DNA from: Gammaproteobacteria bacterium
GTDB taxonomy: Bacteria > Pseudomonadota > Gammaproteobacteria > GCA-002705445 > GCA-002716945
Length of the DNA: 36,214 nucleotides
Reading direction: 5' to 3'
NCBI GenBank assembly: GCA_018670435.1
Contig: JABHRC010000041.1
Coordinates: forward strand, 1 to 36,214
The translations under genes and the position numbers were made by a program. The notes beneath the pieces are model-generated. The model worked only from the letters and a program-made list of their open reading frames with translations. It had not been told where the DNA came from and did not search any database. Position 1 is the stretch's first letter. Each line of letters begins with the position of its first letter. This document shows, one piece after another, positions 15,306-18,457 of this stretch.

Positions 15306-16685
15306 ATGAAAAAAATTACTTGTCGAACTGAAGAAGATTCTCTTGGAAAGGTCAAAGTCCCAAGATCTGCTCTATATGGCGCCCAAACTCAAAGAGCTAT
15401 AGACAACTTTAAAATTAGTAGAGATGTTTTCCCTCCAGAATTTATTGAATCGTTGGCTGCATTAAAAGCTGCCTGCGCAAAGGCAAACCATAAGTCAAAA
15501 TTGATGCCAGCGAGCATAGCTAATGCAATAAGTAGTTGCGCGCTAGATATACATAAAAACATTGAGAAATACTACGATCAATTTCCTATAGATATATACC
15601 AAACCGGATCTGGCACAAGTACTAATATGAATATGAATGAAGTCTTATCTACAATTGTATCTAAGAAGCTTAAGAAAAATATTCATCCTAATGATGATAT
15701 TAATAAATCTCAGAGTTCCAATGATATTATTCCTACAACAATAAATATTTGTTCAGTACTTTTAGCTTTAGAGCTAAATGATGCGCTAGATTACTTTACA
15801 ATGAAATTAATAGATAAAGAATTTGAAGTCAAAGATGTAATTAAATCGGGTAGAACTCACCTCATGGATGCAGTGCCTTTATCATTTGGTTATGAGATAG
15901 AAGCATGGAGAGAGCAGGTGGTGCATTGCAATCAACCATTATTACAAAGCGCAGAAGAATTACAATACCTACCGATTGGGGGAACCGCTATTGGGACAGG
16001 ACTCAATGCTCCAAAAAACTTTGGCCAATCAGTAACAAAAGAATTAAATAAAATACTCGGTAAGACAGGAGCAAAGTTCACTTCAAATCCTAATAAATCT
16101 GAAATGATTAGTTCTCAGAATCATATATTAACAATGTGCGGAGCTTTACTTCGAGTATCTTCATGTTTGACAAAAATTTCAAATGATTTGCGATGGATGA
16201 ATAGCGGCCCTATTTCTGGGCTGTCAGAAATTACATTAAAACCATTGCAACCCGGAAGCAGTATAATGCCAGGAAAGATTAACCCAGTAATTCCTGAAGC
16301 AGTCTTAATGGCAATGGCGCAAGTATCTGGATATCATAATGCAATCAATATAGCTTGTATCTCAGGAAGTTTTCAGCTTAATACAATGCTTCCTTTGATA
16401 GCTAAGAATATTATTGAATCTTTTAACTTATTAATAAACTCTGTTTACTCTCTAGCAGATACGGTTGATTCATTTAAAGTTAATGATGAAAATATCAGAT
16501 TGAATTTAGAAAGAAACCCAATAATTGCAACTAAGCTAAATGAAATAATTGGATATGATCTTGCTTCCAAGATAGTAAAAGAGGCCTATAAGACGAATCA
16601 ATCTATAGTCGATATTACTGAGAAAAAAACTGATTTATCAAGATCTCAGATATTGAAATTATTAGATCCAAAAAAATTAATCTAA
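15306..16685 (+). CDS. fumC: fumarate hydratase class II
   Basis: TEEDSLGKVKVPRSALYGAQTQRA, SGTSTNMNMNEV, PGSSIMPGKINPVIPEA. Start set at 15306; the 15093 extension lies antisense inside purB. Confidence 0.96.
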   Translation: MKKITCRTEEDSLGKVKVPRSALYGAQTQRAIDNFKISRDVFPPEFIESLAALKAACAKANHKSKLMPASIANAISSCALDIHKNIEKYYDQFPIDIYQTGSGTSTNMNMNEVLSTIVSKKLKKNIHPNDDINKSQSSNDIIPTTINICSVLLALELNDALDYFTMKLIDKEFEVKDVIKSGRTHLMDAVPLSFGYEIEAWREQVVHCNQPLLQSAEELQYLPIGGTAIGTGLNAPKNFGQSVTKELNKILGKTGAKFTSNPNKSEMISSQNHILTMCGALLRVSSCLTKISNDLRWMNSGPISGLSEITLKPLQPGSSIMPGKINPVIPEAVLMAMAQVSGYHNAINIACISGSFQLNTMLPLIAKNIIESFNLLINSVYSLADTVDSFKVNDENIRLNLERNPIIATKLNEIIGYDLASKIVKEAYKTNQSIVDITEKKTDLSRSQILKLLDPKKLI

Positions 16686-16692
16686 CTTAACT

Positions 16693-17436
16693 ATGTTAAA
16701 TAAACATATAACTGACTTAATTTTTATAAAATGGCTTTTATTTTTTTTGAGTTTAATTATTATTCTGTTATCAGCAGAGCAATATAATCTCTTGTCATCT
16801 ATGCTTATAAACGATGTCAGCTATATATCATCTGTCATATTATGCATCTTCTTTTTCTCCACAATCAAAGTTGGTTTTGAATTATATTATCTTAAGGATA
16901 GACATTTAAATATTATATTATTGTTAGCTAATTTATCATCTAATTCAAAAGCTAATGCATTGGAAAATATTAATTATTTCAAGAGATCTACTAATGTTGA
17001 TAATATCATTATAATGAAATATATTTCATCAATTGTTTCTTTGCAAAGTTCCAATAAAAATACAGAAGAGACGAAAAAAAGTTTTGAAAACGATATAACA
17101 ACTAAATTAGAAACCGGATGGTTCATTGCTGATCTATTGTTAAAGTTAGGATTGATTGGTACTGTTATTGGTTTCATCATAATGCTATCTGCTATCACAG
17201 AGATTGAAAACTTTGACCTGACTTTGATGAATGCATTATTACAAAGTATGAGCGGTGGAATGAAGGTTGCTTTGTATACAACACTGACAGGTTTGGTGAC
17301 TTCTATCTTATTATCAATGCAATATAAATATTTAGAGTCACTAGTTTATAAAATATTTCACACATGTAATTCTCTAATCCCCTACATTGATGAGGAATTA
17401 GGCGATGTTCTAAAAAATGAAACGACGCTACTCTAA
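16693..17436 (+). CDS. MotA/TolQ/ExbB proton channel family protein
   Basis: Several TM segments; LLLKLGLIGTVIGFIIML...MSGGMKVALYTTLTGLVTSILLSMQY matches the TolQ/ExbB/MotA core pattern. Confidence 0.8.
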   Translation: MLNKHITDLIFIKWLLFFLSLIIILLSAEQYNLLSSMLINDVSYISSVILCIFFFSTIKVGFELYYLKDRHLNIILLLANLSSNSKANALENINYFKRSTNVDNIIIMKYISSIVSLQSSNKNTEETKKSFENDITTKLETGWFIADLLLKLGLIGTVIGFIIMLSAITEIENFDLTLMNALLQSMSGGMKVALYTTLTGLVTSILLSMQYKYLESLVYKIFHTCNSLIPYIDEELGDVLKNETTLL

Positions 17437-18019
17437 ATTCGATCCATTTACAGATTTATTGTTTAATATACTCTTGGGTTTTACATTTCTTTTTTTCATC
17501 ACGATTCTGTTTATAAATCCTATTACTCAGCTTGGTAATGTTAATATGAAGGCTGAATATATAATTACAGTTGATTGGGACGATAGTCTTGAGGATGATG
17601 TTGACCTCTGGGTAAAGGACCCAAATGGTGAAATTGTTTCTTACTTAAAAAAGGATGCTGGGTGGTTACACCTAGATAGAGACGATAGAGGCGTTATTAA
17701 CGATACGGTTATAATTGATAATAAAGAAGTAATTTATCCTATAAACCGTGAAGTAGTCACACTGCGAGGAATTATACCTGGAGAGTATACTGTAAACTTA
17801 TATTTATATGAGCATAAGAGTATGAGTCCTGTTGATGTAAAAATAATCATTGAAAAGGTTAACCCTTCTTTAAAATTAGTTTTTGTAAATGATGCTGTTA
17901 TGAAGACAAAAGATACAGAGCTGACAATCACTAAATTCCGTCTCGACTCAGAGGGAAATTTTAAATCAATCTTCTCCAAGAATGAGACCCTGACTCCTTA
18001 TGAGTTAAAAGGGTACTGA
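17417..18019 (+). CDS. single-TM protein with ExbD/MotB-like N-terminus and a DUF2135-like C-terminal domain
   Basis: FDPFTDLLFNILLGFTFLFFITILF N-terminal TM with Asp; VDWDDSLEDDVDLWVKDPNGE resembles DUF2135-type sequences; overlaps the upstream channel gene by 20 nt. Confidence 0.65.
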   Translation: MKRRYSKFDPFTDLLFNILLGFTFLFFITILFINPITQLGNVNMKAEYIITVDWDDSLEDDVDLWVKDPNGEIVSYLKKDAGWLHLDRDDRGVINDTVIIDNKEVIYPINREVVTLRGIIPGEYTVNLYLYEHKSMSPVDVKIIIEKVNPSLKLVFVNDAVMKTKDTELTITKFRLDSEGNFKSIFSKNETLTPYELKGY

Positions 18020-18022
18020 GCA

Positions 18023-18457
18023 ATGAATATTCTACTAATTATTATATCTTTAACAATAATTTATGGGCTATTGATTTATATCATTTTAAAAAATGTAAAT
18101 TTTAAAAAGATGATATATTTATCTATATCAATTCTAGTATTTTTTATATTTTTGCAGATTAAAATATTCGATAGTTTGGGATACCCTGTGATATCAGATT
18201 TACCAAAAAGTTTTGATATTTTATATGTCGAGAAATCAGAAAGTCAATTTATTATTTTAATAAAAGACTTTTCTGAGGAAGATATTCCTAGATTATACAA
18301 ATTAGAATATAGCAAGGATTTAGAGGATACTCTGAATGATGCCATGACAGATATAAGTAATGGTAAAAGGGTCATTGGTGTCATAGATGACTCAAATGAT
18401 GATAATCACTATGGAATCTCTATCAAACATATTAAAAAATTAGTACCTGATAAATAA
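18023..18457 (+). CDS. membrane protein of unknown function (third gene of the channel module)
   Basis: Two hydrophobic N-terminal segments and a soluble tail; starts 3 nt after the upstream stop. Confidence 0.65.
   Translation: MNILLIIISLTIIYGLLIYIILKNVNFKKMIYLSISILVFFIFLQIKIFDSLGYPVISDLPKSFDILYVEKSESQFIILIKDFSEEDIPRLYKLEYSKDLEDTLNDAMTDISNGKRVIGVIDDSNDDNHYGISIKHIKKLVPDK

Follow-up and report, generated by a model that had tools for sequence, protein, structure and literature searches.

Comparative analyses of a gammaproteobacterial genome of 0.97 Mb revealed a module of three packed genes, located between a lyase gene and acnA, that is widely conserved and apparently undescribed; we consider it rather likely that its products make up a new family of inner-membrane machines, stator-like and driven by ions, that act in the Gram-negative periplasm. 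The ion-driven stators described so far are used for motility, secretion, the import of nutrients, the upkeep of the outer membrane or defence. The genes (hereafter genes 1, 2 and 3, or the trio) lie within the window, i.e., the whole stretch of 36,214 nt that was analysed, and their coordinates, overlap and short gaps (Table 1) had been given exactly to the base in a previous sequence-only reading. Both flanks of the trio in the window are metabolic genes. The name fumC given in that reading to the upstream one is not borne out: its product stays under the curated cut-off of the FumC model (418 bits; cut-off 665) and also under that of the aspartase-subfamily model (448 bits; cut-off 510). 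The three frames are open and conserved in related genomes, with dN far below dS as expected under purifying selection (dN/dS of about 0.03-0.04 for gene 2, 0.11-0.2 for gene 1 and 0.13-0.3 for gene 3, all rough ratios because dS is near saturation), and therefore do not occur by chance.

Table 1. Coordinates of the trio, its flanking genes and the main protein features in the window.
Feature	Coordinates	Strand	Description
Upstream lyase gene ("fumC")	15306-16682 (scored region); gene end 16685		7-nt gap to gene 1
Gene 1	16693..17436	+	247 aa; A-subunit-like protein of the MotA/TolQ/ExbB superfamily
Gene 1, MotA_ExbB region	17047-17361	+	Pfam
Gene 1, Thr157 codon	17161..17163	+	TM3, GLIGTVIG; T in 200/203 full trios
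Gene 1, Thr197 codon	17281..17283	+	TM4, ALYTTLTGL; T in 203/203 full trios
Gene 2	17417..18019	+	200 aa; B-subunit-like; 20-nt overlap with gene 1
Gene 2, TM helix (residues 10-33)	17444..17515	+	Predicted model
Gene 2, Asp13 codon	17453..17455	+	Start of TM helix; D in 189/203 trios and 74/74 phage rows
Gene 2, beta-sandwich (residues 46-185)	17552..17971	+	Model and conservation
Gene 3	18023..18457	+	144 aa; third subunit; 3-nt gap after gene 2
acnA, start	18519		Downstream of gene 3

The product of gene 1 is a genuine member of the MotA/TolQ/ExbB superfamily, bearing out the core of this type recognized earlier from the letters: it matches Pfam MotA_ExbB (PF01618) well above the curated cut-off (E=1.4e-11, 44.7 bits; cut-off 22.9), and its profile matches the solved chains of MotA, ZorA, TolQ, PomA and ExbB. 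As with the MotA/MotB and PomA/PomB stators, to which it is likened by a MotA-type chain being its best match in PDB, it probably has four transmembrane (TM) helices, about this number being apparent by reading the sequence. Residues Thr157 and Thr197 are almost perfectly conserved (Table 1), and we take them to correspond by position to the channel threonines of ExbB, TolQ and MotA; likewise, D41, G153 and G156 are conserved in every sequence reaching those positions. Conversely, the trio differs from flagellar stators in its short cytoplasmic loop, in the lack of an OmpA-like peptidoglycan-binding domain and of a long plug or linker, and in that there are no flagellar genes at the locus. The channel core is also shared with ZorA/ZorB, and a Zorya-like anti-phage defence built on a stator could be envisaged, since the best PADLOC matches of gene 1 are ZorA models (E=5e-6) and its PDB matches include ZorA-type chains. 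Such a role is nevertheless very improbable: the shared core alone matches, with no long ZorA tail, no ZorB-type domain and neither ZorC/D/E nor other effector genes alongside; genes 2 and 3 have no PADLOC match, in agreement with the previous observation that Zorya partners are missing from this locus; and the locus is conserved in one bacterial family, while phages themselves carry the trio.

Gene 2 would provide the B subunit of the proposed stator. Its AlphaFold2 model (pLDDT 89.6) predicts a short basic N-terminus, a single TM helix with Asp13 at its start, a linker of about 12 residues and a beta-sandwich to which all the predicted strands belong, so that the N-terminal TM segment with an Asp read from the sequence is recovered, as is the replacement of a TolR or OmpA domain by something else. 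For the window protein, we found no match above the curated cut-offs of Pfam or NCBIfam, none of note in PADLOC or PHROGs, and no PDB fold matching the model at E<=0.001. The beta-sandwich contains ten invariant residues (W54, D61, D63, L86, D89, D90, G92, E112, R117, and P150), within which the invariant DxD and LDRDDxG-like motifs suggest a possible metal site. The window translation contains the peptides FDPFTDLLFNILLGF and VDWDD...DDVDLWVKDPNGE, the latter previously described as DUF2135-like. This likeness is weakly supported, by a motif of the DxD...LDxD type seen in the beta-sandwich domains of DUF2135 (PF09906) and PPC and by weak profile matches in a few members (5 of 57 at E<=1, the best 0.001; one trio member reached 22.3 bits for a cut-off of 22); most members, including the window protein, have no match, and the gene 2 profile did not match a true DUF2135 protein.

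Similarly, the ExbD/TolR family PF02472 did not match gene 2 of the window and was absent among the families listed for 57 members. In a comparison of the gene 2 TM segment with the ExbD profile, 7 of 200 shuffled sequences scored equally high and the reversed control was equal; we therefore make no claim of homology to ExbD, and the assignment of gene 2 as a B subunit rests on its position, the membrane Asp and its adjacency to gene 1. In favour of the stator reading, gene 2 lies immediately downstream of gene 1, as B subunits do; against it, Asp13 is replaced by A or V in fourteen bacterial members from two groups. In these same two groups (L132, L135-L137, and L222-L231), Asn17 is replaced by Lys. 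The Bradyrhizobium members are among those without Asp13.

Gene 3 encodes a small membrane protein of no known family, as had been proposed: neither Pfam nor NCBIfam gave a match above a curated cut-off, and PADLOC and PHROGs gave nothing noteworthy. Its model (pLDDT 87.6) predicts a hairpin of two TM helices with a basic loop, followed by a small alpha/beta domain without PDB fold matches at E<=0.001; residue G53 is kept in 203 of the 203 full trios. Because the N-terminus of gene 2 and the loop of gene 3 are basic in most rows, the positive-inside rule would place the soluble domains of both proteins in the periplasm. Several genomes of one of the bacterial groups lacking Asp13 contain a tandem pair of gene 3.

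The trio resembles ExbB/ExbD and TolQ/TolR in its superfamily, in its small cytoplasmic part and in having an adjacent one-TM partner with a membrane Asp, but departs from them in that gene 2 has neither an ExbD/TolR domain nor detectable homology, in its obligatory third gene of a new family, and in the lack of TonB, TolA or Pal. The window genome contains a separate locus with ExbB, a TonB-dependent receptor, two ExbD and TonB, and its sole two ExbD/TolR-type genes adjoin tonB. The trio is therefore not the Ton system, and this separate locus, together with the lack of an ExbD/TolR match in gene 2, rules out that genes 1 and 2 are ordinary ExbB/ExbD or TolQ/TolR orthologs, one of the two findings that would have overturned the earlier reading. 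In turn, TolB_N was found in 0 of 12 genomes of the bacterial family of the window (among G000-G018) vs. 8 of 8 comparison genomes, three of them of 0.9-1.4 Mb, indicating a possible loss of Tol-Pal in this diderm lineage. Since these genomes also have at most one canonical ExbB-type gene besides the trio, a Tol-like role is thinkable in the family. In its full form, this explanation holds that TolB was lost and that the trio, as the only other stator, replaces Tol-Pal and energises outer-membrane upkeep; we find it improbable, because TolB coexists with the trio in five other carriers, the trio is apparently missing from some family members (e.g., G014, 92% complete), and phages carry it as well.

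The other such finding, a trio not conserved as a unit, was not obtained either: the three genes form a conserved unit across gammaproteobacteria and beyond, with the same order in bacteria and phages. The order 1-2-3 was found in 131 of the 138 loci with gene 2, with median gaps of -5 and +2 nt, and a gene 3 profile, searched independently, retrieved 39 of 369 gammaproteobacterial genomes, all of them within the 42 containing gene 2 and at neighbouring coordinates. Gene 2 occurs in 21 of the 25 genomes searched from the family of the window, and in the loci examined there the trio is situated between the lyase gene and acnA; in other families the order is preserved at different chromosomal places. 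This fixed chromosomal position in a streamlined lineage suggests a housekeeping role. Gene 2 was also present in 19 of 399 genomes drawn from the phylum, including a Bradyrhizobium-like group with genomes of 6-9 Mb, and at least 539 genomes of the GTDB collection contain the trio; a plasmid search with gene 2 found none. Among the matches listed, all the hosts are Pseudomonadota except for one metagenome-assembled genome labelled Flavobacteriaceae (L146), whose contig contains a trio of the window family between the same flanking genes; its sequence groups with that family, and the label is probably a binning error.

The analysis extended the sequence-only reading in three respects: the carriage of the trio by phages, the conservation of gene 3 as a third subunit, and the presence of envelope proteins among the neighbours. 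Using tblastn, we found gene 2 in 21 Rhizobium phage records (36-42% identity), flanked by genes 1 and 3 in the usual order; gene 1 itself, too diverged, retrieved no phage matches. Isolated Rhizobium and Sinorhizobium phages with the trio include N34, AF3 and 16-3, and the annotation of one phage cites Bll5685. One scan of IMG/VR yielded 283 contigs (more than 280 viral contigs overall) and a further scan found 21 of a diverged, temperate type; a diverged trio was confirmed by profile in the temperate phages 16-3, NV1.1.1, TM3_3_14B and X2_25, and gene order was kept in all 19 complete temperate-type loci. An unrooted tree of 118 gene 2 proteins, from a sample that favours sequences close to the window, separated 60 bacterial from 58 phage rows by a single branch with support 100/100, from which the split appears to be old and without recent exchange within this sample.

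In 17 of the 19 complete temperate-type loci, gene 1 is preceded by a gene whose product is a secreted protease of the trypsin-like type (Trypsin_2). Varied inserts, such as homing endonucleases and small ORFs, occur between members of the protease-trio group (L241 7247-10135, and L277-L293); the persistence of the protease and the trio despite these unrelated inserts indicates that the four genes are kept together. Apart from the protease, phage trios are surrounded by replication, sigma, metabolic and uncharacterised genes. No partner recurred across the phage neighbourhoods except for a phage-encoded SbmA/BacA-like peptide transporter, found near the trio in nine related loci (L095 7815-8792 and eight other phage loci). 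A phage lysis cassette was considered and rejected, with endolysin families amounting to only 2 of 125 neighbours. This scarcity, together with the predominance of replication, sigma and metabolic genes, also weighs against an explanation in which the trio is a gated ion channel with no mechanical output. In it, the pore made by genes 1 and 2 would lower or sense the membrane potential and would open on a periplasmic signal detected by the domains of genes 2 and 3, and phages would use it to exclude other phages or to time lysis. Two observations agree with such a channel: its carriage by large lytic as well as temperate phages, and the minimal phage gene 1, with hardly any cytoplasmic loop and a median of 156 aa vs. 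244 aa in bacteria, where most of the extra length falls between TM helices 2 and 3. The fixed position of the trio in a streamlined chromosome argues in the opposite direction, and we deem this channel unlikely.

In bacteria, the neighbours of the trio include several envelope proteins, none of which is universal. In one gammaproteobacterial group, a YkuD L,D-transpeptidase and a DUF302 lipoprotein precede the trio and a vWA-TM-FHA protein follows it (L210 10152-11642, L187, L214, L217, and L198); a DUF3108-like lipoprotein is located downstream in alphaproteobacteria and some others, and a secreted DsbH-like protein upstream elsewhere. Of 24 bacterial clusters, 5 have a lipobox gene next to the trio, vs. 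6 of 288 background genes, which are small numbers. Within the family of the window, no envelope neighbour is adjacent to the trio, and a search of the window genome for the DUF3108-like lipoprotein, run without a positive control, did not find it. Two recent surveys of the motor superfamily cover non-flagellar stators with varied extra domains. One treats generic ion transporters (GIT) to which DUFs have been added (PMC12505986); the other describes force transducers with a vWA domain beside tolQR-like genes (PMC12204202), to which the vWA protein adjoining the trio in one gammaproteobacterial group can be compared. A term search for DUF2135 gave nothing in either paper, and in the passages found in them neither a B subunit of this kind nor gene 3 nor a stator carried by phages is described. 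We found no paper on the trio, on bll5685 or on DUF2135 with a proton channel in a search of open-access journals.

Returning to the stator reading, the superfamily of gene 1, the conservation of the unit, the conserved residues and the predicted folds support the stator-like machine first proposed from the sequence, while ion-driven motion remains an inference. Gene 1 would form an ion-conducting ring, a pentamer by homology, enclosing two copies of gene 2 (5:2), each of which would contribute a protonatable Asp at the membrane. As ions flow, the ring would rotate or shift relative to gene 2, the beta-sandwich of which would be kept close above the membrane by its short linker. Gene 3, with its periplasmic domain, would be an obligatory third part that couples or gates this movement. 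In bacteria, envelope partners would receive the force or gating, and the copies found in many phages would presumably serve to modify the envelope of the host while they infect or lysogenise it.

If this is true, the trio would be a separate stator family, distinguished by the fold of its B subunit and by a third protein that is obligatory; found in marine bacteria that are uncultured, in Bradyrhizobium-like genomes and in numerous phages, it would widen the uses of the motor design. More boldly, and only as a tentative proposal that may well prove wrong, these would be undescribed periplasmic machines of three subunits, powered by ions and built on a new type of B subunit. Their phage copies, coupled in temperate rhizobial phages to a secreted protease, would constitute a real class of phage force-generating motors, and in the lineage of the window the machine may have assumed some of the functions of Tol-Pal. 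Phage 16-3 offers a genetically workable, non-pathogenic system for the trio, and the carriage of the trio by phages suggests an as yet undescribed way in which viruses act on the energised envelope of the cell.
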